Shown in pieces: positions 19,043 through 59,400 of a DNA stretch of 64,000 nt (its first letter is position 1; every line of letters begins with the position of its first letter). Position numbers and translations under genes: made by a program. This stretch comes from a virus: IMG/VR virus record IMGVR_UViG_3300000553_000012, positions 32,390 through 96,389 of that record; one strand, given 5' to 3'. The notes beneath the pieces were generated by a model. The model was not told the DNA's origin, searched no databases, and worked only from the letters and a program-made list of their open reading frames with translations.

Positions 19043-19486
19043 TTAAATTTTATTTTTAATGGTGGATCTAAGCATCCAAGAATGTTTTTTGTGAATATCG
19101 GTTCTGTCTTGTAAAAAATTACTGACACCAATTTCACCAACTTTTTCTGCTTCATTATACGCTTTTCTTAAAGATATTATTACTTTTTCATTATCATCTA
19201 ATAATTGACCGGCCATTGACACTCCATCGGGAATAGTTGTAGCATCTGAAATTGTAGTCAATTCGGAAAATCTACTAAATGATCCGGGAGCATATTCATC
19301 TAATGATCTAATATGTTCTGCCACTGCATCTGTGGCTTCCCAAACTTCATCATAGATTTTATTAAATAGCTTATGATATTCGTAGAAGTCTGCACCCTCT
19401 ACATTCCAGTGATAATTATGAGTTTTTAAATAAAATGCAAATGTATCAGCCAAAACAACTTTTAATGCATCAGTTAGTTTGCTCAT
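19043..19486 (-). CDS. dps: Dps-like ferritin, DNA protection protein
   Basis: Dps proteins form 12-subunit shells that oxidise Fe2+ with hydrogen peroxide and store the iron. The 147 residues have all inter-subunit ferroxidase ligands at the correct spacing: H26 (HWNV), H38, D53 and E57 (DAVAE). The start overlaps the end of the SOD-like gene by 17 bases, so the two are likely translated together. No basic DNA-binding tail is seen, so iron and peroxide handling is the safer reading. Being embedded in the virion block is unusual. Confidence 0.9.
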   Translation of the reverse strand: MSKLTDALKVVLADTFAFYLKTHNYHWNVEGADFYEYHKLFNKIYDEVWEATDAVAEHIRSLDEYAPGSFSRFSELTTISDATTIPDGVSMAGQLLDDNEKVIISLRKAYNEAEKVGEIGVSNFLQDRTDIHKKHSWMLRSTIKNKI

Positions 19487-32032: not shown

Positions 32033-32196
32033 CATGTCTCCTTTAAAGTATTTATTTCATCTAATACTTCTATCACAAAATAATCAGATTCATTCCAATA
32101 GGCTCTAAATTTTCCAGGATAAGAAATTCTCTCTGCGGCATGAGTATAAACATAATGTAATGACTTAGCTTGTTCATTATCAAATTTTAAAATCAT
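32032..32196 (-). CDS. Hypothetical protein (54 aa)
   Basis: An open frame from ATG at 32196, which overlaps the TAA of the decarboxylase gene, to a TGA overlapping the next start. The product is small and soluble. The exact overlaps at both ends argue that it is real. Function unknown. Confidence 0.55.
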   Translation of the reverse strand: MILKFDNEQAKSLHYVYTHAAERISYPGKFRAYWNESDYFVIEVLDEINTLKET

Positions 32197-32558
32197 TAAT
32201 CTGCCTGTCTTGTAATAAATGTTTTTCTAATTTTATTTGGTTTAAAATATTGATTTACTGTATCTATCACGTCTTGTATATTATATTCTTGACACGAAAA
32301 AACATCGAGATACAATTCACAACTATTATCACAAAAATGTGCCGTTATATTACTAGTTTCAATGAGTTGAATCACAGTCCAACCGGCAAGATGTTCTTCA
32401 TTATGCCCAAAATGAACAATTTGTGGTTCTCCATATGGAATCATATTGATTTTTTTTACTAAATATTCAATCCACGATCTTAAAATTTCCGGAGATGTAA
32501 TTGATCTCTTATCACATCCTGAGCAATCGAGAAGGGTATGATATCCCCAATATGACAT
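32196..32558 (-). CDS. speD: S-adenosylmethionine decarboxylase-like protein
   Basis: The 120-residue protein resembles the short SpeD proteins of T4-like marine phages. The motif LIETSNITAHFC (about residues 64-75) would hold the serine that becomes the pyruvoyl group, and ELYLDVFSC (about 81-89) is the second conserved block. SpeD makes decarboxylated AdoMet for spermidine synthesis; polyamines are bound by phage DNA. It sits amid small unknown genes. Activity has not been shown for this protein. Confidence 0.8.
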   Translation of the reverse strand: MSYWGYHTLLDCSGCDKRSITSPEILRSWIEYLVKKINMIPYGEPQIVHFGHNEEHLAGWTVIQLIETSNITAHFCDNSCELYLDVFSCQEYNIQDVIDTVNQYFKPNKIRKTFITRQAD

Positions 32559-33255: not shown

Positions 33256-33410
33256 TATTTTTCTCCAAATATAGTTTTAAAATATAATGTAGCATCTTTA
33301 GCGTATTGTATCCATAGCTTTTGATCTTTAATTGGCAATTTATAATAATTTGATTTTTGATATCTCATGGTATATAAATTAAATGCAATTTTGTTATAAT
33401 CAAAAGTCAT
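33255..33410 (-). CDS. Hypothetical protein (51 aa)
   Basis: Read from ATG at 33410 (overlapping the end of rnh by 11 bases) to TAA sharing a base with the next ATG. The product is tyrosine- and lysine-rich and probably helical. It lies in the rnh transcription unit. Function unknown. Confidence 0.55.
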   Translation of the reverse strand: MTFDYNKIAFNLYTMRYQKSNYYKLPIKDQKLWIQYAKDATLYFKTIFGEK

Positions 33411-34245
33411 TTAGGTGTTCCATTAAATTTTTGAGTTTATTAGCTACAAAATAATTAAAAAGTTTACTACGATCTTTATTTTGAGAAGAATATTGTTCTA
33501 AAATTTGATTTGCAATATCATCAGGAACAAAATCTAAATCAATAAGTTGTTGATTGCGCTTATAATTTCTAAGCATATATTCATCACAAAAATTTTTCGG
33601 TTCTTGTAAAATCCAGCCAGCCAACTTTTTTGAAGTAACCGGCGTTTGTCTAATTCCCATTACAAATGCATTATCTGGAGATAAAAAATTTGGTATACCA
33701 TCTCCAGCATCACCTCTAATAATGTGTTCCTTTAAAAAGAGGTCTGGATTGTCACAGACAATAAATCTTTTTAGAATAGGACTATATTGCTTAACATTTG
33801 GATATTTTTGCAATTGAGCAAAATCTTTATCACCAGAAAGAATTAAAATCTTTTCTTGATAAGAAAATTCTTTAGTTAAAGTTGCAACGATATCATCGGC
33901 TTCAGCATGATCTACCTGAATTACCTTATAAGGCATAAAATCTTTTATTTCTTGGCGAATTTTATTTAAGATTTCAAATAGTGAATTCCAATCTAGTTCA
34001 GAAGCATCACGATCTTTTTTGCGATTGGCCTTATAATAAGGATATATTTCTTTACGCCAATAATGCTTATCATCACAAGCAATAATCATTTCTCCATAAT
34101 CATTAGAAAATTTTAATCTATGATTACGAAGAGAATTCAGAATCATATGTCTGACAATATTTTCTTCTATTTTAATGTTTTTATGATTACCAATCTGCGC
34201 CATTAGCGTAGAAATCATAATCTGAGAAAAGTCAACGATTATCAC
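33400..34245 (-). CDS. rnh: RNase H (T4 Rnh-like 5-prime nuclease)
   Basis: A 281-residue FEN-type nuclease that removes RNA primers and flaps in lagging-strand repair. The metal-binding motifs are clear: MIIVDFSQ at the N-terminus, HAEADDIVA (about residues 112-120) and LSGDKDFAQL (about 135-144). The length is close to T4 Rnh (305). It has its own sigma70-like promoter. It would act with gp43, gp61 and gp32-type proteins at the replication fork. Confidence 0.92.
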   Translation of the reverse strand: MIIVDFSQIMISTLMAQIGNHKNIKIEENIVRHMILNSLRNHRLKFSNDYGEMIIACDDKHYWRKEIYPYYKANRKKDRDASELDWNSLFEILNKIRQEIKDFMPYKVIQVDHAEADDIVATLTKEFSYQEKILILSGDKDFAQLQKYPNVKQYSPILKRFIVCDNPDLFLKEHIIRGDAGDGIPNFLSPDNAFVMGIRQTPVTSKKLAGWILQEPKNFCDEYMLRNYKRNQQLIDLDFVPDDIANQILEQYSSQNKDRSKLFNYFVANKLKNLMEHLNDF

Positions 34246-34690: not shown

Positions 34691-35656
34691 CTATTTTATT
34701 GATGCTGGATTAATGACATTCACCATATTACGCCAGGCGGATGCACCAGTAGAAGATAAAGGCCATGGCGCATTAGCATGTCCAGCATTTTCACCGCCGG
34801 GACAATCGAAAATCAAAAGCATATTAAAATTGACGGGAACTTGATATGACGTTTTACCGAGTAAGTAGTTTGTTATTGAATTAAAAAAAGCCGATTGATT
34901 TTGTGGTAAAGCCGCAGTTTCAGCAATACCACATGATTTGCCTCGATTACACCAATATGTTAAATTTGCTGGTAAAGGATTAGTTGTTGCTGTAAAATCT
35001 TCTTCTTCTGTTCCAGCAGGATAATGATCAAACATTATTCTATCTACATATACATCTCCAGGATAAAAAGGAAGTACCGCGGCCGGAACTCTCGGGGCGG
35101 CTGGAACCCAAGCCCATAATACATTTGTTGCTCCTTCTTGAACAAATATATCATGAATATGCTGCCATCCTGCAACAAACCCGGCGGGATTGCTTTGAGT
35201 ATTACAGCTATGAATATCAGAAATATTAAATTCCCACCCCGTTCCTCTAAATAAAATAGGATGACCAAAGGCGGCGGCCGCTTTAGCAAAATTACGATAA
35301 TATACATCATCCGCGCCGGCCAATAATCTAGCCGGAGTATCACATCTTACATTAAGAACTGGAGTAATTCCCAAAGCATACATTTTATTTAAACTATCAA
35401 TTGGAAATTTTCCTGGATCTTTTGGATCAACTACACCATTATTAATCCAACAATGAGCATACGTTGGATATGTTCCTGTCAAACTTTTAAACGCGGCCAT
35501 TTGACGAACTGTTCTAGAACAATCATCTATGTCTGATTTTTGCACAGATAATCCTTCTGGATTAACATATGCTCCAAAATAAACGGCTGGTGTGGCCAAT
35601 GCGGGTTTACATATTAACAAAGTTGCCAAAATAGCAAATATTTGTAATAGTTTCAT
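34691..35656 (-). CDS. Exported GH26-like glycoside hydrolase
   Basis: A 321-residue protein with a signal peptide (MKLLQIFAILATLLICKPALA, cut near 21). The remainder resembles GH26-type (beta/alpha)8 enzymes: RGTGWEFN gives a likely acid/base E142, GATNVLWAWVPA and FYPGDVYVDRIMFDHY are typical of the family, and GIAETAA gives a likely nucleophile E246. It would be exported to the host periplasm or outside and cut a beta-linked polysaccharide such as a mannan; the substrate is not readable. It flanks the heptose island. Its DNA is richer in G and C than its neighbours, hinting at recent transfer. Confidence 0.72.
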   Translation of the reverse strand: MKLLQIFAILATLLICKPALATPAVYFGAYVNPEGLSVQKSDIDDCSRTVRQMAAFKSLTGTYPTYAHCWINNGVVDPKDPGKFPIDSLNKMYALGITPVLNVRCDTPARLLAGADDVYYRNFAKAAAAFGHPILFRGTGWEFNISDIHSCNTQSNPAGFVAGWQHIHDIFVQEGATNVLWAWVPAAPRVPAAVLPFYPGDVYVDRIMFDHYPAGTEEEDFTATTNPLPANLTYWCNRGKSCGIAETAALPQNQSAFFNSITNYLLGKTSYQVPVNFNMLLIFDCPGGENAGHANAPWPLSSTGASAWRNMVNVINPASIK

Positions 35657-35712: not shown

Positions 35713-36699
35713 TTAACACTCGCAATTGATACGACTTCCATGATCATAAAAAGCAAAATCATAAATTCTACATTCAGTATCAGTGGTGATTGATTTAATC
35801 ACTTTTTCTCTTTTATCTTTAGGAACATAAAAAACAAAGAATCCTCCGCCGCCGGCGCCCATCAATTTACCACCAAGAGCTCCATTTTCCATAGCTTTTA
35901 AGTATATCATATCAAAATAATTGCTAGTAATATCTTTTACAACTTCTTTTTTATCTATCCAAGATGAATGAAGCATATCACCAAAACTATCAAAATCCCC
36001 ATCAGCAAGATATTTAGAAGCACTATAAGCTTTATCTCTAGAACGACAAACTAATTTAAATTTATCAGCATCTTTCATGGCGGTTTGTTGTTTTTGCAAA
36101 ATGCTATTGGCGGATCGGCTTTTTCCACTATATACCAATAAAAGATTATCTTCTAATTTAGTAATATCTTTACGCAATATATTTATACTATTAATAGAAA
36201 CATTTCCATCTTTTTCAAATTCGAATAAATTAAATCCACCATATGCGGCTGCATATTGATCTTGTTTACCAACCGGATAATTACACTTATTCATTTCAAT
36301 TTCACATGCTACATCGGCTAAATACTTTCGAGATGAAATTTCCCAACGAGAAGATGATAAAGCATTAACTAATCCGACAGTAAATGCAGAAGAAGAGCCT
36401 AATCCTGAGCCTTTTGATATAATATCAGATATTGAAGCAATGGTAATTTCTTTATCTATAGAATAGTATTTTAGTGCTTCTTTAGTAATTAGATGTTGCA
36501 TATCCTCAATATCTTTAAACTCTTCAATTGAGTCATACATAATTTTGATTCCAAGATGAGGAGTTTTGTGAACCATAACATAAATAAATTTATTGATAGT
36601 TACGGATAATGCAGCACCTTTTTCTTTACTATAAAATGATGGCATATCACTTCCACCAGAGAAGAAACTTAAACGAAGTGGAGTTTTTGAAATGATCAT
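35713..36699 (-). CDS. hddA: D-glycero-D-manno-heptose 7-phosphate kinase-like (GHMP)
   Basis: A 328-residue GHMP-superfamily kinase. The start MIISKTPLRLSFFSGGSDMP and the ATP loop KGSGLGSSSAF (about residues 95-105) are those of HddA-type heptose kinases, and MGAGGGGFFVFYV near the C-terminus is the third motif. HddA adds phosphate at C1 of heptose 7-phosphate. It overlaps the glycosyltransferase gene by four bases and is the last gene of a leftward island with GmhA-, GmhB-, transaldolase- and nucleotidyltransferase-type genes. A different sugar phosphate is possible, but the neighbours favour heptose. Confidence 0.85.
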   Translation of the reverse strand: MIISKTPLRLSFFSGGSDMPSFYSKEKGAALSVTINKFIYVMVHKTPHLGIKIMYDSIEEFKDIEDMQHLITKEALKYYSIDKEITIASISDIISKGSGLGSSSAFTVGLVNALSSSRWEISSRKYLADVACEIEMNKCNYPVGKQDQYAAAYGGFNLFEFEKDGNVSINSINILRKDITKLEDNLLLVYSGKSRSANSILQKQQTAMKDADKFKLVCRSRDKAYSASKYLADGDFDSFGDMLHSSWIDKKEVVKDITSNYFDMIYLKAMENGALGGKLMGAGGGGFFVFYVPKDKREKVIKSITTDTECRIYDFAFYDHGSRINCEC

Positions 36700-37703
36700 G
36701 GTGTTGTCTTAAAAATAAACATTTCTTTAGGCTTTTTTCGTGATTCAATAGTTGGATATTGTTCAAGCAATGCTTTTAACATAATTTCCCATTGGGTTTT
36801 AATTCTGTTAATGTTATATCTACCATCGACAAAAAATTTATTGAATCCGATTATATCAGAATAGTTTTCATCTTTAATTAGTTGTATTGCAGCATCTAAA
36901 TGACTGGAAAATATGTTGGCATGTATATTCTGATCTTCACGATTTCCTTGATACATAAGATTTAATCCACCAGATGTTTCTGATAAAGCTCCATAATTTG
37001 GATGAACACAAAGAAGTCCCGCAGACATTGATTCAAGCATAGCTCTACAACTCGTTTCAAGCCATATCGATGGATATGCAAAAATATGATATCCATTTAA
37101 CTCTTCTCTAAGTTTATCGTTTGGTACAAATCCATGATATGTCATTTGAGGATGATTAATGACCTCATTATATAAAGGCTCAAACGATTTATCTGCATCA
37201 TCCCAGCCATATATCTTAAAACTTGAATATACATGAAGATGAAGTTCTGGATATTTTTTGGCCAAATGTTTAAATACAGGAATTAATATTTCTAGACCAC
37301 GCTGGGGCGTAGATGTATAAACTAAATGTATCTTACTATCATTTGGTTTAATCAAGGCAGATGATGGAGCCGGATCAATACCAGACTCTAATACAATAGA
37401 TTTATTATCATAAGGAATTCTATGAATAAGCTGATATCGTTGATATTGCCAATTACTAATAAAAACATATTTATGAAAATTGTCTTGAAACTGTTTATCT
37501 TGGAATTTTTGTGATTCTGGATCTTCTGGCAAATCATGACACCAAAAAATACGGATCTTTTCCATATCTAAATCTCTTGGGCGAGAACAAATAATTTGAA
37601 AATTACTTAAAAGTTCTGGATCAAGTAATTCTGCAAGCTTACGTTTAGCAATTTCTGTTCCGCCATTAGCTTTAGCTGAAATTTCATTTTCTTCAAATGC
37701 CAT
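36696..37703 (-). CDS. GT4-type glycosyltransferase
   Basis: A 335-residue GT-B glycosyltransferase. The C-terminal half carries YTSTPQRGLEILIPVF and the acidic motif ETSCRAMLESMSAG (E-x7-E, about residues 213-226) that binds the nucleotide sugar. The N-terminal acceptor domain is divergent. It overlaps hddA, so it most likely uses the activated heptose made by this island. The acceptor could be lipopolysaccharide, a virion protein or DNA; nothing in the sequence decides it. Confidence 0.82.
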   Translation of the reverse strand: MAFEENEISAKANGGTEIAKRKLAELLDPELLSNFQIICSRPRDLDMEKIRIFWCHDLPEDPESQKFQDKQFQDNFHKYVFISNWQYQRYQLIHRIPYDNKSIVLESGIDPAPSSALIKPNDSKIHLVYTSTPQRGLEILIPVFKHLAKKYPELHLHVYSSFKIYGWDDADKSFEPLYNEVINHPQMTYHGFVPNDKLREELNGYHIFAYPSIWLETSCRAMLESMSAGLLCVHPNYGALSETSGGLNLMYQGNREDQNIHANIFSSHLDAAIQLIKDENYSDIIGFNKFFVDGRYNINRIKTQWEIMLKALLEQYPTIESRKKPKEMFIFKTTP

Positions 37704-37726
37704 ATTTTATTTACCTTTCATACATT

Positions 37727-38458
37727 TTATATAGTGTAGCCTGATGCCACAGCATCATTAAAGAACATTTGACAAGTTTCTTTAGAAAATTGTGTTGGAT
37801 TTTTAATGCCAAATCCATGAACTTTCTTAATTAGATCGGGCGTCATTGTAATAATATGACAGCCACAACCATCCGCTTCAATATAGTTAAATGCCTCACG
37901 GGAACTGGCCCATAGAAATTCACATTTATTATGATTTGTATATTCATAACAATAATCAATACCATCTACAATAATATTAACGGGGTCAATACCAATATCA
38001 GCAAGACGTCCGGCAAATACCGACACAATACTTGGAACTTCTGTATTTAGATTATTAACAGCATTTTTAATCTGTTCAAGCGTAAACACTGCCGTGACAT
38101 TTAATGAAATGCCTTCATCGCTGAGTTGCTTAATAAGATTGTATGTAGGTGTACCGTCTGTATGCATAATAGGGATCTTAACATATACATGATAACTATA
38201 CTTTTTGCCCCAGCTATCAATTAGACGGGCCTGACGAATAATATCTGAATCATTATCCGCAAAAACTTCAAGACTTAAACATGTGTCAGGACGAAGACTT
38301 GCTAATTTTGCAATCAACGTATTGGCAAATTCTGTATAATCAGTAACACCGGCTTGACGCATAAGAGTAGGATTAGTAGTAAATCCTAGTATATTTGGAT
38401 TGGCGGCGGCTTCAATGATACCATTCATATCGGCACCATCGGCAAATAATTTAATCAT
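37727..38458 (-). CDS. talC: Transaldolase (TalC-like)
   Basis: A 243-residue transaldolase. The N-terminus IKLFADGADMNGI and TTNPTLM are typical, and the Schiff-base lysine is K94 in VYVKIPIM. The enzyme exchanges three-carbon units between fructose 6-phosphate and erythrose 4-phosphate, giving sedoheptulose 7-phosphate and glyceraldehyde 3-phosphate. In cyanophages TalC is tied to the pentose phosphate pathway. Here it sits in the heptose island and probably supplies sedoheptulose 7-phosphate to GmhA. Stop and start overlap gmhB by four bases. Confidence 0.9.
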   Translation of the reverse strand: MIKLFADGADMNGIIEAAANPNILGFTTNPTLMRQAGVTDYTEFANTLIAKLASLRPDTCLSLEVFADNDSDIIRQARLIDSWGKKYSYHVYVKIPIMHTDGTPTYNLIKQLSDEGISLNVTAVFTLEQIKNAVNNLNTEVPSIVSVFAGRLADIGIDPVNIIVDGIDYCYEYTNHNKCEFLWASSREAFNYIEADGCGCHIITMTPDLIKKVHGFGIKNPTQFSKETCQMFFNDAVASGYTI

Positions 38459-38982
38459 TTATTTAGACTCCATATCAGTGAACAAGCTTCAAAAACATTT
38501 TCTGCCTCATAATCGGGCTTAATATTTTCATATTCTTTTGGGCATTCATATTCATCGAATATGCCATTTTTAATCCATATAGTTTTCAGACCGGCATTGT
38601 GGCCGCATACCACATCTCTCCACCTATCGCCAACAAAAAAACTCTTAGAGATGTCTACATTATGAATACTACGTAAATAATCTATCATACCTGTATTGGG
38701 TTTATAACTATTTGATCCACGTATTCTAGATGAAATAACATCATCAAAACAAAAATATGTCATATAGAGTTTCATCATTTCATCATGAAATTCATCTGTA
38801 ACTTCAGGATCGGGTTGATTAGTCACCATAAAGGTTTTATATCCAAGGTCTTGAATTAGAAGAATAGCTTGTTTTGAATTATTAAAAAATATAATATCTT
38901 TCATATTCCAAGCACCATGTGGTGGTGTGCCAACCATAGGCGATAATACACCATCTTTATCAAAAAAGACCGATTTTACCAT
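38455..38982 (-). CDS. gmhB: Heptose bisphosphate phosphatase-like (HAD family)
   Basis: A 175-residue HAD phosphatase. Motif I is FFDKDGVL (nucleophile D8, acid D10), motif II VTNQPD, then KPNTGM and motif IV FFVGDRWRDV. This is the GmhB pattern, which removes the C7 phosphate of heptose 1,7-bisphosphate. The zinc-loop cysteines typical of E. coli GmhB are not obvious. It overlaps both gmhA-like and talC genes. Confidence 0.85.
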   Translation of the reverse strand: MVKSVFFDKDGVLSPMVGTPPHGAWNMKDIIFFNNSKQAILLIQDLGYKTFMVTNQPDPEVTDEFHDEMMKLYMTYFCFDDVISSRIRGSNSYKPNTGMIDYLRSIHNVDISKSFFVGDRWRDVVCGHNAGLKTIWIKNGIFDEYECPKEYENIKPDYEAENVFEACSLIWSLNK

Positions 38983-39560
38983 TTCGTTTTATTCATTTGA
39001 AGAATTGGATGAGATACTAAACAATGCCATACTACTGCCTGAAAAGCTTCTGAGTGTGGTGTTATTCTAGTAGGTTCTACTATAGGTATGATAATAGAAA
39101 CATCGCTATTGTGGGCTGCATATCCATCGGATTTTCCAACAATACTAAGAACTGTTCCAGTTTTTTCTTTAGCGTATTTGATTGCTTTGATCAAACCAAT
39201 CGAAACATTCTTTTCTTCATTACCGCCTCCAACCGATAAAACAAAAATAGTATCATTTTTATTAAATCGACTTACTTGAAGAAACTGTTCAAAGATTGTA
39301 TCAAACCCTTCATCGTTTGTTCGAGCAGTTAGCTCACTTGAATTATCTGTCGGGGCGTAAGCTTCAATATTACATAATTTACGAAGATCATTGACCATAT
39401 GAGAAGCATTACCGGCCGAACCGCCTACACCAAGAACAAATACACGACCTTTATTAATTTGTGTTTTATGAAGGCTCTTGGCTATATCTTCAATTTTATT
39501 GGTATCAATTTGTGTTGCAATATCTACTACTTCATTAAAAAAAATATTACTAAAACTCAT
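38976..39560 (-). CDS. gmhA: Phosphoheptose isomerase-like (SIS domain)
   Basis: A 194-residue SIS-domain isomerase. GVGGSAGNASHMVNDL (about residues 43-58) is the GmhA phosphosugar motif and SVGGGNEEKNV the second. GmhA converts sedoheptulose 7-phosphate to D-glycero-D-manno-heptose 7-phosphate, the first step of nucleotide-heptose synthesis. It is placed between gmhB and the nucleotidyltransferase with almost no spacing. Confidence 0.87.
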   Translation of the reverse strand: MSFSNIFFNEVVDIATQIDTNKIEDIAKSLHKTQINKGRVFVLGVGGSAGNASHMVNDLRKLCNIEAYAPTDNSSELTARTNDEGFDTIFEQFLQVSRFNKNDTIFVLSVGGGNEEKNVSIGLIKAIKYAKEKTGTVLSIVGKSDGYAAHNSDVSIIIPIVEPTRITPHSEAFQAVVWHCLVSHPILQMNKTKW

Positions 39561-39561
39561 A

Positions 39562-39969
39562 CTATTTAATCCTTTTTCTCAAATCAGTTGAACTATATGA
39601 ATGCATTCTGGGAGAATTGAAAAAGATTGTGATTCCTTTATGGTCACAAATATCTTTACCAGTAAAATTAGTTTTATTATATTCATAACCCAAGAATCTA
39701 ATATTTATGGGTAATGTGGCCATCATATTTTCTAAGTCTTTTTCTGTATCATATGGTACTATTTTATTAACAAACTTACATGCTGTTAATTGAATATATC
39801 GTTCAAAAACTGATTGAATGGGTCTTTGCTTATCATTTGGCCTATCAATAGTTGGATCTGTGTGTAGTCCAACTATTAAATAATTACAATTATTTTTACA
39901 TTCTTCTAGCATTGTAATATGCCCGGGGTGTAATAGATCAAATGCCCCACAAGTAAATCCTACAATCAT
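39562..39969 (-). CDS. Heptose-phosphate nucleotidyltransferase-like protein
   Basis: A 135-residue cytidylyltransferase-fold protein. It has FTCGAFDLLHPGHI with the HxGH catalytic signature (about residues 5-18) and ends with YSSTDLRKRI, the usual second motif. It resembles the C-terminal domain of HldE and TagD-type enzymes. In this island it would join NTP and heptose 1-phosphate; whether the nucleotide is ADP, CDP or another cannot be told. The lone domain without the HldE kinase half fits the presence of a separate HddA kinase. Confidence 0.83.
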   Translation of the reverse strand: MIVGFTCGAFDLLHPGHITMLEECKNNCNYLIVGLHTDPTIDRPNDKQRPIQSVFERYIQLTACKFVNKIVPYDTEKDLENMMATLPINIRFLGYEYNKTNFTGKDICDHKGITIFFNSPRMHSYSSTDLRKRIK

Positions 39970-40148
39970 AATTTATTAATTTCTGGTTCTTCAATTTCAA
40001 TATCTTCAATATATCTATCTTGATAATCTTTTGCTACTTCTAGACAAAAAGATAATACTGCCAATGGACTAATACGAGCAGCAATATTAATTATAATCCA
40101 TTTTGCGACTACTGCTCGTATATATTCCCACCGTGTCAGTTTAGACAT
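39966..40148 (-). CDS. Small membrane protein (60 aa)
   Basis: A hydrophobic stretch at about residues 13-37 (AVVAKWIIINIAARI with LAVLSF) and an acidic tail (IEDIEIEEPEI). It overlaps both neighbours by a few bases at the head of the heptose island. Possibly membrane-associated; function unknown. Confidence 0.5.
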   Translation of the reverse strand: MSKLTRWEYIRAVVAKWIIINIAARISPLAVLSFCLEVAKDYQDRYIEDIEIEEPEINKL

Positions 40149-40380
40149 TTTGATACACTACAAAATTAATTATAGAATCCTTACGAAACGATCTCCAGTT
40201 GTTTGCTTCGGTATCCCAAACTGAAACTACATCTGTATTTTCTTTACGTTTTTGTGCTTGTTCTTCGGGATTAATTTGAATGGGTAAATATTTTTCATTC
40301 AAGGTACACAACATATTACGAATTGCACCATCTTTTTTTGTAAACTTGATTTGACAAATATTAGACTTTAAATCATCCAT
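40141..40380 (-). CDS. Sm-like/WYL_2-type small phage protein
   Basis: A 79-residue protein with IKFTKKDGAIRNMLCTLNEK and VSVWDTEANNWRSFRKDSI, the pattern of a DUF2693/WYL_2 SH3-barrel family common in T4-like phages. I choose ATG at 40380, overlapping the glutaredoxin stop, over an in-frame start at 40419. These proteins may bind nucleic acid; the role is unknown. Confidence 0.65.
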   Translation of the reverse strand: MDDLKSNICQIKFTKKDGAIRNMLCTLNEKYLPIQINPEEQAQKRKENTDVVSVWDTEANNWRSFRKDSIINFVVYQNV

Positions 40381-40627
40381 ATAGTGTATTGGTAGTATCA
40401 TTATTTTTAATCCTTTCAACTAATTCATTATATCCACCAATATATTTTCCGTCTTCAAAGATTTGAGGAACAGTTTTTGCGTGTGGTACTTCAGTAAGAA
40501 GCATCTCCTTAAAATATTCAACTTTTTCAATATTAAATTCCACATAAGGAATATTCTTAGAAGTCAAAAGATTTTTTGCCGCGGTACAATAACTACAATT
40601 TGTTTTTGTATATATCCAATATGACAT
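40373..40627 (-). CDS. grxC: Glutaredoxin
   Basis: An 84-residue glutaredoxin with the redox motif CSYC (residues 11-14), the cis-proline segment TVPQIF and GGYNEL. It likely reduces the C-terminal CDSC of NrdA and so supports deoxynucleotide synthesis. It lies just left of two tRNA genes and starts at ATG 40627. Confidence 0.94.
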   Translation of the reverse strand: MSYWIYTKTNCSYCTAAKNLLTSKNIPYVEFNIEKVEYFKEMLLTEVPHAKTVPQIFEDGKYIGGYNELVERIKNNDTTNTLYG

Positions 40628-52893: not shown

Positions 52894-53234
52894 GTAAACC
52901 CACAGTCGAAGAATCTTCTGAATATGAAAACTGTTTAGATACAGAGAATGTATCATATGGAGTTTCTAATTTAAATGATTTTTTTCCTGAAAATGCAACA
53001 GAAGAACAAAATGATACTAAGTGGAAAAAACATTGGGTAGGAATGCCCGAATACAAGCAAGAAGACAATCCAACATATAAAACAATCTATGTTCATTTTA
53101 GAAACGAAGAAGATTACCAAGAATTCGCAAACATAATTGGTCAATCTTTGACAAAAAAGACAAAGAGTATTTGGCATCCACGACTAGATCGCGATGCTAA
53201 TGCATTACGTAGGTGGATTGAAACGGATGACTAA
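52890..53234 (+). CDS. Conserved phage protein (114 aa)
   Basis: The segment KKHWVGMPEYKQEDNPTYKT with IYVHFRNEEDYQEFANIIGQ is, from memory, found in T4-like phages alone or fused to ParB-like and methylase domains. It overlaps both neighbours. A role in DNA modification is a guess from context. Confidence 0.65.
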   Translation: MSKPTVEESSEYENCLDTENVSYGVSNLNDFFPENATEEQNDTKWKKHWVGMPEYKQEDNPTYKTIYVHFRNEEDYQEFANIIGQSLTKKTKSIWHPRLDRDANALRRWIETDD

Positions 53235-54144
53235 TCCAAAATATCCTGTCTATATTATTAGTAAGGGTCGGCACGAATCAATGCTAACCTCTCGTTCTTT
53301 GTCTCGTATGAAAGTACCCCATTATATTGCGATTGAACCACAGGACGAAGAGCTGTATGAACAAGCTCTAGATAACTTCGACATTCGTGAATATGTTACA
53401 CTTTTGATTGCTCCATTCAGCAATCACGGTGATGGTCCTGGTCGTGCTAGAAATTGGTGTTGGGATCATTCTATTTCTATTGGCGCAACTAGTCATTGGG
53501 TGATGGATGATAATATCACGGACTTTTATCGTCTCCATGAAAACAGCCGTATACGTGTTGAATCTGGTGTAATATTCAAAGCAGCAGAAGATTTTGTTGA
53601 TCGATATGAAAATGTTCTAATCTCTGGTTTTCAATATAGATTTTTTATTGCTCCTAATCAAAAATATCCACCTTATGTGACAAACACCCGCATCTATTCA
53701 ACTTTGCTTATTCGAAACGATTGCAAACATCGCTGGCGCGGCCGTTACAATGAAGATACTGATATCTGTCTTCGTGTATTGAAAGATGGTGATTGCACTA
53801 TTCAGTTTAACGCTTTTCTTCAAGGTAAAGCGGCGACACAAACAGTAAAAGGTGGCAACACCAGTGAATTTTATCATGCTGAAGGAACACAAGATAAGAC
53901 TCACTGGAGAGACGGGCACCTTAATCCAGAGGGCACCATCAATAAATCACAGATGCTAGTGGACATGCATCCAGACGTTGCCAGAATGGTTTTTCGATAC
54001 GGTAGATGGCATCATTACGTTGATTATAGCTCATTCAAGAAAAATCAACTTAAGCTAAAGTCTGATATTGATTTAAAATCTTTACCTAAAATTAATAATT
54101 ATGGAATGAAATTGATTAAATTAGATAAAAGTGATGTTTCATGA
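53227..54144 (+). CDS. TAGT-like glycosyltransferase
   Basis: A 305-residue protein starting MTNPKYPVYIISKGRHESML, with HWVMDDNITDFYRL (acidic DDN in place of the DxD metal site), RWRGRYNEDTDICLRVLKDG and RYGRWHHYVDY. These blocks match the TET-associated glycosyltransferase (TAGT) family, proposed to glycosylate modified bases in phage DNA. No TET/JBP-type dioxygenase gene or hydroxymethylase is visible in the window. ATG at 53227 overlaps the upstream gene by eight bases. Confidence 0.75.
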   Translation: MTNPKYPVYIISKGRHESMLTSRSLSRMKVPHYIAIEPQDEELYEQALDNFDIREYVTLLIAPFSNHGDGPGRARNWCWDHSISIGATSHWVMDDNITDFYRLHENSRIRVESGVIFKAAEDFVDRYENVLISGFQYRFFIAPNQKYPPYVTNTRIYSTLLIRNDCKHRWRGRYNEDTDICLRVLKDGDCTIQFNAFLQGKAATQTVKGGNTSEFYHAEGTQDKTHWRDGHLNPEGTINKSQMLVDMHPDVARMVFRYGRWHHYVDYSSFKKNQLKLKSDIDLKSLPKINNYGMKLIKLDKSDVS

Positions 54145-55143: not shown

Positions 55144-56106
55144 ATGGAAGTGAAAATTCCCGTAGAAGAATTAAGGAAAAGAAAGCTTTTTGTTGCCACG
55201 CCGATGTATGGAGGCATGTGCGCTGGTATGTTTTGTCGAAGCACAAACGATCTATCAGCCATCGCGGTGCATTATGGTATTGAAGTAAAATACTATTATC
55301 TTTTCAATGAATCCCTTATTACTCGTGCTAGAAATTATTGTATTGATGAATTCATGCGATCAGATTGCACCCATCTTTTATTCATCGACTCAGATATTGG
55401 GTTTAATGCAAATGATGTTCTGACAATGCTTGCTCTTCAATCTGATGAAAGCGAGTATGATATTTTATGTGCTCCATACCCCAAGAAGTGTATTTCTTGG
55501 GAAAAAGTTAAGACTGCGGTTGATAAAGGAATTGCAGATGAAGATCCAAATATTCTAGAAAAGTTCGTTGGAGATTATGTTTTTAATCCCGCCAATGGCA
55601 CAAATGAAATTAAGATTGCTGAACCCGCAGAAGTACTAGAGTCTGGCACCGGGTTCATGATGATTCGTAAGGAAGCACTTCTAAAAATGGGACGTGAATA
55701 TCCTCATCTTATGTATCGACCGGATCATGTTAGAACTGCTGCATTTGACGGTTCCCGAGAAATCATGTGTTTATTTGATGCTCTTATTGATAATAAACAT
55801 GCTCAAATTGTTCCTGAAATTCGCGAGTTTTATAAACAAAATCCAAATGCCACTCAAGAAGAAGTTGTCGCATTTATCGATGATGTTAAGAATAGTGCGT
55901 TTGGATTTGAATATTCAAATCGTTATCTGTCAGAAGATTACATGTTTTGTCAATGGGCCCGTAAGATTGGATTAAAGGTTTGGTTGTGTCCATGGATTGG
56001 ATTACAACATGTTGGATCATATGTCTTTGGTGGTTCTCTTGCTGATTTAGCGGCGGTGGGGGCGGCTGCCACGGCTGATCCTTCTAAACTTGGAAAAAAG
56101 GCTTGA
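55144..56106 (+). CDS. GT-A-type glycosyltransferase-like protein
   Basis: A 320-residue protein. KLFVATPMYGGMC opens a Rossmann-like start, HLLFIDSDIGF (about residues 78-88) gives a DSD metal motif, and YLSEDYMFCQWARKIG a typical C-terminal acceptor region. T4-like marine phages carry this gene near gp45. Acceptor unknown; with the TAGT-like enzyme it may act on DNA or virion proteins. Its TGA stop forms part of the gp45 promoter. Confidence 0.75.
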   Translation: MEVKIPVEELRKRKLFVATPMYGGMCAGMFCRSTNDLSAIAVHYGIEVKYYYLFNESLITRARNYCIDEFMRSDCTHLLFIDSDIGFNANDVLTMLALQSDESEYDILCAPYPKKCISWEKVKTAVDKGIADEDPNILEKFVGDYVFNPANGTNEIKIAEPAEVLESGTGFMMIRKEALLKMGREYPHLMYRPDHVRTAAFDGSREIMCLFDALIDNKHAQIVPEIREFYKQNPNATQEEVVAFIDDVKNSAFGFEYSNRYLSEDYMFCQWARKIGLKVWLCPWIGLQHVGSYVFGGSLADLAAVGAAATADPSKLGKKA

Positions 56107-58725: not shown

Positions 58726-59400
58726 ATGTTAAATTATGATGATAAGTGCCATATTATTGAAAGTAATTTGGATAATAAAAAATATTGGCTTTGGCCAAAA
58801 GAAGACCGCGATCTTTGGGGTCATTGCTCTAATGAATGGCCTATGTTAAAACAGATGTGGGAACAATTCATCGACAAATACGATGTATGCATTCAAGCGG
58901 GTGGTGCATGTGGTATGTATCCTAGACTTCTTGGAGAAAAATTTAAAAAGCTATATACATTTGAACCAGAACCATTAAATTTTACATGTTTGGTTTTTAA
59001 TTGTCAAAATGATAATATTCACAAATATAACGCCGTTTTAGGCGATAAACACACTACAGTTAAATTGGTTAGTAGAGAAGATTATATATACAATCGTGGA
59101 ATGTATCACGTAGGAATCGATGGAACCTACGAAATTCCAATGTTAATGATAGATGATTTTAATTTATCTGATTGTGATTTTATTCAATTGGATATTGAAG
59201 GCTGTGAATTAATGGCGTTAAATGGTGCTAGAAATACTATAGAAAAATTTAAACCTGTAATTTCTTGTGAAAATGGAACAGAAGATATTTTGCGCTTTCT
59301 TCAATCTATAGCACCATATAAACATGTAGCCAGATTACAAACAGGATATGATCATGGAACTAAACTAGGAAGATATGATGATACATATAAGGTGATTTAA
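58726..59400 (+). CDS. FkbM-family methyltransferase
   Basis: A 224-residue SAM-dependent enzyme. CIQAGGACGMYPRLL is motif I, LYTFEPEPLNF motif II and FIQLDIEGCELMALNGA (about residues 146-162) the FkbM signature. These enzymes O-methylate sugars or other small acceptors. Methylation of a phage or host glycan would fit the glycosyltransferases here. It follows regA closely. Confidence 0.85.
   Translation: MLNYDDKCHIIESNLDNKKYWLWPKEDRDLWGHCSNEWPMLKQMWEQFIDKYDVCIQAGGACGMYPRLLGEKFKKLYTFEPEPLNFTCLVFNCQNDNIHKYNAVLGDKHTTVKLVSREDYIYNRGMYHVGIDGTYEIPMLMIDDFNLSDCDFIQLDIEGCELMALNGARNTIEKFKPVISCENGTEDILRFLQSIAPYKHVARLQTGYDHGTKLGRYDDTYKVI

Follow-up and report, generated by a model that had tools for sequence, protein, structure and literature searches.

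A compact, order-conserved gene module of T4-like phages that may build and use a nucleotide-activated heptose

In bacteria, nucleotide-activated heptoses are made along two routes, one leading to GDP-heptose through HddA, GmhA, GmhB and HddC, and the other to ADP-heptose through GmhA, HldE and GmhB. Phage heptose genes are already known: the annotation of the Caulobacter phage Cr30 (NC_025422) lists such genes, heptose-related lipopolysaccharide (LPS) genes together with talC have been described in cyanophage SynMITS9220M01 (PMC7378029), rfaE has been reported in a pelagimyophage (PMC7029224), and viral enzymes make ADP-heptose (Tang et al. 2024, as summarised in PMC11461863; the enzymology is also covered in PMC11573728). 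The summary in PMC11461863 gives the phosphatase as absent in viruses. Here we analyse a 64,000-nucleotide window (positions 32,390 to 96,389 of IMG/VR virus record IMGVR_UViG_3300000553_000012), in which six adjacent genes encode a nucleotidyltransferase (NTR), an isomerase (ISO), a phosphatase (HAD), a transaldolase (TAL), a glycosyltransferase (GT4) and a kinase (KIN). Synthesis of a nucleoside diphosphate heptose is the best reading of these genes and is considered likely; that all six form one module which both builds and uses the activated sugar, with GT4 acting on an acceptor other than DNA, is an evenly balanced proposal.

The contig from which the window comes is 96,389 bases long and carries T4-superfamily genes, among them gp43- to gp47-like replication genes (identified by eye in the list of open reading frames (ORFs), in agreement with synteny among relatives). 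The six ORFs all lie on the minus strand and run from 39969 to 35713 in the transcription order NTR-ISO-HAD-TAL-GT4-KIN. The first, at 39562..39969, encodes a TagD/HldE-C-like nucleotidyltransferase of 135 residues (PF01467, CTP_transf_like, 4e-14; phrog_7878, 2.9e-34) and is followed by a 194-residue phosphoheptose-isomerase-like SIS-domain protein (38976..39560; PF13580, SIS_2, 2.8e-10), a 175-residue HAD-IIIA phosphatase that is a candidate heptose bisphosphate phosphatase (38455..38982; TIGR01662 above its cut-off), a 243-residue TalC-family transaldolase (37727..38458; PF00923, TAL_FSA, 1.6e-36), a 335-residue GT-B glycosyltransferase (36696..37703; PF00534, Glycos_transf_1, 1.6e-10) and, last, a 328-residue HddA/WcbL-type GHMP kinase with N and C domains and a match to NF049969 (35713..36699). 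Successive genes are spaced by +1, -7, -4, +23 and -4 bases. These coordinates, gaps and family searches agree, in outline, with an earlier sequence-only reading of the window, which had described six leftward, near-spacerless genes of these families. Profile matches among the module proteins include phrog_34407, phrog_2170, phrog_440 and phrog_7878. No module protein reaches the NCBIfam equivalog cut-offs for HddA, GmhA, GmhB or HldE domain II, and the enzyme names are therefore assigned by similarity.

Cr30, also of the T4 superfamily, resembles the window in that its isomerase, HddA-like kinase (37-39% identity) and GT4 (43%) stand together by glutaredoxin, its TagD-like NTR (48%) lies near RNase H and its isomerase shares the H-D-E-H metal site discussed below; it differs in that the NTR is set apart, an epimerase/dehydratase-like gene is present and the cluster names no transaldolase or HAD gene. 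Cyanophages SynMITS9220M01 and Bellamy carry an HddA-like kinase (about 30% identity) in sugar clusters, but the gene annotated as a nucleotidyl transferase near the Bellamy kinase is of another type (GT-A, HddC-like by eye) and is accompanied by many further sugar genes. Set against the viral enzymes studied by Tang et al. 2024, the module adds a candidate for the phosphatase, which the summary of that work reports as missing from viruses. Among openly licensed papers, no report was found of a near-complete set of six genes that includes phosphatase and transaldolase, of its conservation or of its two non-canonical enzymes.

IMG/VR scans with the KIN, GT4 and ISO queries yielded about 155 loci, and synteny was counted over 48 distinct IMG/VR loci spanning glutaredoxin to RNase H. 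All six genes occur in identical order in 40 of the 48, whilst the remaining eight comprise two loci without a recognisable NTR, one with NTR-ISO-GT4, two with HAD-GT4 and three with GT4 alone. The median dN/dS by gene is 0.06-0.11 and the module is under purifying selection. The recurrent slot reads glutaredoxin - WYL_2 - (SpeD) - module - RNase H, and the conserved unit is thus larger than six genes, with glutaredoxin and WYL_2 upstream, RNase H downstream and often SpeD. In the window the slot starts at a glutaredoxin-like gene (40373..40627, minus strand; assigned by synteny among related loci), continues with a small WYL_2/DUF2693 protein found in most related loci (40141..40401, minus strand; PF10902, 7e-17) and ends at a T4-type RNase H (33400..34245, minus strand), which is supported by synteny and by a DNA match to S-PM2 and other T4-like phages. 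What had been taken for a phage island is, with 40 of 48 loci in identical order, a conserved module of a phage lineage and no private insertion. The same constancy bears on the idea that the genes serve general carbon metabolism, such as the pentose phosphate support proposed for cyanophage talC, with the heptose link incidental: although phrog_440 is a known phage transaldolase family, those 40 loci all place TAL between HAD and GT4, within an operon of overlapping genes, and this explanation is very improbable.

A maximum-likelihood GT4 tree places the rows with GT4 alone among module carriers and requires two to three changes; on this basis, at least two losses of the donor genes, with GT4 retained, are probable. 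GT4 relatives adjoin glutaredoxin, or sit between glutaredoxin and RNase H, in Cr30, DLP6, phiM12 and RHph_I1_18, and an annotated glutaredoxin is close to the glycosyltransferase in Cr30, DLP6 and phiM12. A further glycosyltransferase neighbour of ~355-390 residues constitutes a single family in Cr30, phiM12, RHph_I1_18 and OC; it occurs near the glycosyltransferase gene in alphaproteobacterial T4-like phages (loci L163, 7919-9085, and L164, 7912-8979, with further members in L002, 1644-2741, and L166, 7287-8369), had no Pfam match in the two members scanned and has no BLAST match to the module region of the window.

As for the origin of the pathway, bacterial HddA-like kinases commonly have ISO- and HAD-type genes within 10 kb, and by eye are surrounded by glycosyltransferase- and epimerase-like genes. 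The highest ISO and TAL scores in bacterial genomes belong to an overlapping TAL-ISO pair in a marine alphaproteobacterium (L234), near a kinase and a PF00483 transferase. Together, these neighbourhoods and the TAL-ISO pair support the acquisition of a seven-carbon pathway from bacterial glycan loci.

The kinase matches NF049969 (HddA) at 2.2e-47, yet at 162 bits against a cut-off of 600, and among proteins of known structure it is best matched by heptokinases and HddA-like kinases (PDB 3k85, 4usk, 4usm and 4n3o; 1e-35 to 1e-37). Mutation of R13, D22, S118-120, Q162 or D163 abolishes WcbL activity (PMC4691232), and all of these essential residues are conserved in the KIN alignment as R9, D18, S102-104, Q146 and D147, which upholds the earlier assignment to the HddA type. 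The phosphatase keeps near-invariant HAD-IIIA catalytic residues (D8, D10, T54, K94, D119 and D123) and scores 44.8, 38.5 and 29.7 bits against NCBIfam GmhB models with cut-offs of 178, 250 and 149.6 respectively. The transaldolase scores 245.6 bits against TIGR02134 (cut-off 281.95), with the Schiff-base lysine K94, E64 and F148 near-invariant. The positions that are Glu and Phe in transaldolases are Gln and Tyr in FSA, and on its residues TAL is of the transaldolase rather than the FSA type.

For the reactions, the nucleotide and the acceptor, we infer the following scheme. TAL would convert fructose 6-phosphate and erythrose 4-phosphate to sedoheptulose 7-phosphate, ISO would turn this into an aldoheptose 7-phosphate, KIN would phosphorylate it at C1 and HAD would remove the 7-phosphate; NTR would then activate the resulting heptose 1-phosphate with a nucleotide, for which CTP is the probable and ATP a possible source. 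GT4 would finally move the heptose, or a near relative of it that host metabolism can supply as well, onto an acceptor that is not DNA. The proposal that transaldolase frees the phage from the host's sedoheptulose supply holds insofar as TAL can provide sedoheptulose 7-phosphate, but the reaction needs erythrose 4-phosphate besides fructose 6-phosphate. By-eye inspection of the ORF lists revealed no evident HldD-like epimerase. The scheme shares with the bacterial GDP-heptose route its kinase type, active-site residues and kinase-linked isomerase and phosphatase, but has NTR in place of HddC and non-canonical isomerase residues; with the ADP-heptose route it shares an NTR that is distantly HldE-C-like, but a GHMP kinase takes the place of HldE's kinase domain.

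Several observations weigh against this scheme, beginning with the isomerase. The closest solved structures to the ISO profile are GmhA (1tk9, 1e-23; 5i01, 2e-23), in keeping with the earlier naming of a phosphoheptose isomerase. The GmhA zinc site of H64, E68, Q175 and H183 has been called completely conserved, and a Q175E mutant of the Burkholderia pseudomallei enzyme was reported inactive (PMC5705639). In ISO the metal site is H54-D58-E171-H179, H-D-E-H in place of H-E-Q-H, so that two of the four GmhA-defining residues differ, and this holds in 68 of 68 phage homologues; family searches placing the kinase and isomerase outside the heptose clades had been named as grounds for rejecting the pathway, and the failure of the zinc-site residues touches on this. 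The product could then be an activated sugar other than D-manno-heptose, if the isomerase uses another ketose phosphate or yields another stereoisomer. The altered metal site, the equivalog scores below their cut-offs and the many Streptomyces phages with NTR relatives, whose hosts have no LPS, all fit such a product; however, TAL in the operon and the TAL gene overlapping the isomerase gene in L234 point to a seven-carbon substrate, KIN retains the WcbL sugar-binding residues and bacteria repeatedly have H-D-E-H isomerases next to HddA-like kinases, and another sugar is regarded as unlikely. By global alignment, the H-D-E-H site is also present in Cr30 and in 15 of the bacterial isomerase genes retrieved alongside HddA-like kinases; since it recurs beside these kinases, it looks like the mark of a real subfamily tied to them and not of decay. 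The variant therefore flags bacterial genes adjoining heptokinases that are non-canonical GmhA.

A second difficulty lies with the nucleotidyltransferase. NTR scores 73.9 bits against TIGR02199 (cut-off 181.5), aligns over its full length with glycerol-3-phosphate cytidylyltransferase and has the invariant residues H14-x-G16-H17 and R121, S126, S127, L130 and R131. Heptose nucleotidyltransferases (HENases) carry the motif (F/L)xxGxSTT (PMC11461863), which NTR lacks, having R-x-H-x-(Y/W)-S-S in the same register. R121 aligns with the Arg of RTxGISTT and not with the Phe/Leu of the heptose motif; the TagD signature HxGH and this Arg are thus present, whilst the rest, RxHx(Y/W)SSx, differs from RTxGISTT. 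In Pfam searches no HddC-type PF00483 transferase was found in the cluster, NTR being its only nucleotidyltransferase (PF01467), and the claim of a lone transferase in place of HddC was borne out, although the label of HldE type fits poorly given the TagD-type arginine of the C-terminal motif. HddA yields the alpha anomer and HldE-type transferases use the beta anomer. Because NTR carries the TagD-type arginine rather than the heptose-type motif, CTP is favoured as its nucleotide, with ATP possible. A bolder form of the proposal, somewhat unlikely as it stands, is that the HddA-type kinase and a TagD-type cytidylyltransferase generate, via a separate H-D-E-H class of sedoheptulose 7-phosphate isomerase, an undescribed nucleotide sugar (CDP-alpha-D-glycero-D-manno-heptose or a stereoisomer), which the infecting phage attaches to a glycan or protein of the virion or host.

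The third difficulty is the glycosyltransferase, which is conserved between glutaredoxin and RNase H even where the sugar genes are absent; as it persists without the module, it may use a donor other than heptose. The module has no linked acceptor gene. The AlphaFold model of GT4 (pLDDT 91) matches SdgB, GtfA, TarM, HepE, BshA and PimA in a Foldseek search of the PDB, at ~15% identity, and these fold matches span very different acceptors with no single class favoured.

Proteins of the virion or host, rather than glycans, could be the acceptor of the heptose. The protein-glycosylating SdgB and GtfA are among the best fold matches, GT4, including its N-terminal domain, is acidic where many membrane-bound lipid transferases are not, and the left part of the contig has no further evident polysaccharide gene. 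SdgB and GtfA, however, stand at the same ~15% identity as the wall-teichoic-acid, lipid and small-molecule GT4 enzymes, and the module has no linked acceptor protein, so that a protein acceptor is rather unlikely.

T4 glucosylates a hydroxymethylated base of its DNA, and GT4 might modify such a base in phage DNA with heptose. This was first strongly suggested by a TET/JBP dioxygenase in 11 of the 13 large contigs having the glutaredoxin-RNase H slot. Cr30 and DLP6 also encode TET/JBP, and the window phage has a TET-associated glycosyltransferase (TAGT) in its gp46-gp45 interval (53194-54144, plus strand; PF20691, 2.1e-45). Sugar donors made by phages have a precedent in the arabinosyl-hydroxymethylcytosine of RB69 (PMC6024577). 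RB69 and Thanatos, T4-like phages with DNA pentosylation, are thought to make the activated sugar with phage enzymes (PMC6024577, PMC12838424), but these enzymes are others, Thanatos has a putative dCMP hydroxymethylase, and there is no sign that the module's GT4 acts on DNA. The idea was weakened by the presence of GT4 without TET in phiM12, RHph_I1_18 and OC, and in the 96-kb contig of the window, where no TET/JBP match was found though the syntenic locus is present. The two slot-bearing relatives without TET (G008 and G009) also have no match to the gp45-side gene and are uninformative on this point. The modification locus, moreover, lies elsewhere, in the gp46-gp45 interval, and its type differs among module carriers, being either TET with TAGT or TET with a kinase and an amino acid:DNA transferase (ADDT). 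Over loci L181-L188, this interval contains TET/JBP in eight of eight, TAGT in two, and P-loop kinase (PF18751) and ADDT (PF18724) families in five, the Pfam identification of ADDT having been made in L184 (5e-22). GT4 is acidic, with a pI of 5.4-6.6 across 78 sequences and, in the window, a pI of 6.0 and an N-domain net charge of -4, against a pI of 8.8 for TAGT. The occurrence of GT4 where TET is missing and alongside two types of DNA modification, together with its acidity, makes DNA an unlikely acceptor, and heptosylation of a hydroxymethylated base is distinctly improbable.

The phage lineage nonetheless appears to modify its DNA, and the gp46-gp45 interval is, on its gene content, a swappable DNA-hypermodification locus. 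Neither a C5-methyltransferase (PF00145) nor a thymidylate-synthase-type hydroxymethylase (PF00303) was found in the window contig or the 13 relatives, so thymine may be the target. The contig has no TET/JBP hydroxylase that would account for the hydroxylated base of the window TAGT. Just 5' of the gp45-like gene lies a phrog_1574 protein (55144-56106, plus strand) with a weak Pfam signal for Glyco_transf_21, which has very many viral contigs among the matches listed.

Other genes of the window include a secreted-looking GH26-like glycoside hydrolase of the mannanase family, which adjoins the module (34691-35656, minus strand) but was rejected as a member of it, being present in no related locus, nor in the viral contig scan. 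An S-adenosylmethionine decarboxylase (PF02675) lies nearby (32196-32558, minus strand), and a similar-looking gene stands within the glutaredoxin-RNase H slot of several relatives. A Dps/ferritin-like protein, recognised by eye only, is encoded at 19043-19486 (minus strand), and an FkbM-type methyltransferase (PF05050) amid the replication genes at 58726-59400 (plus strand).

Among the acceptors originally considered, lipopolysaccharide, virion and DNA, the last is now the least likely, and a surface glycan and a protein are not separable. For the proposed synthesis and transfer of an activated heptose, a host surface glycan is the most likely acceptor, which would change the receptor and exclude rival phages, with a virion or host protein as second choice. 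Recent literature leaves open what viruses with heptose enzymes need the sugar for (PMC11573728). Being compact, order-conserved and near-complete, the module would allow the pathway to be reconstituted with five small proteins and its acceptor to be looked for in a single experiment.

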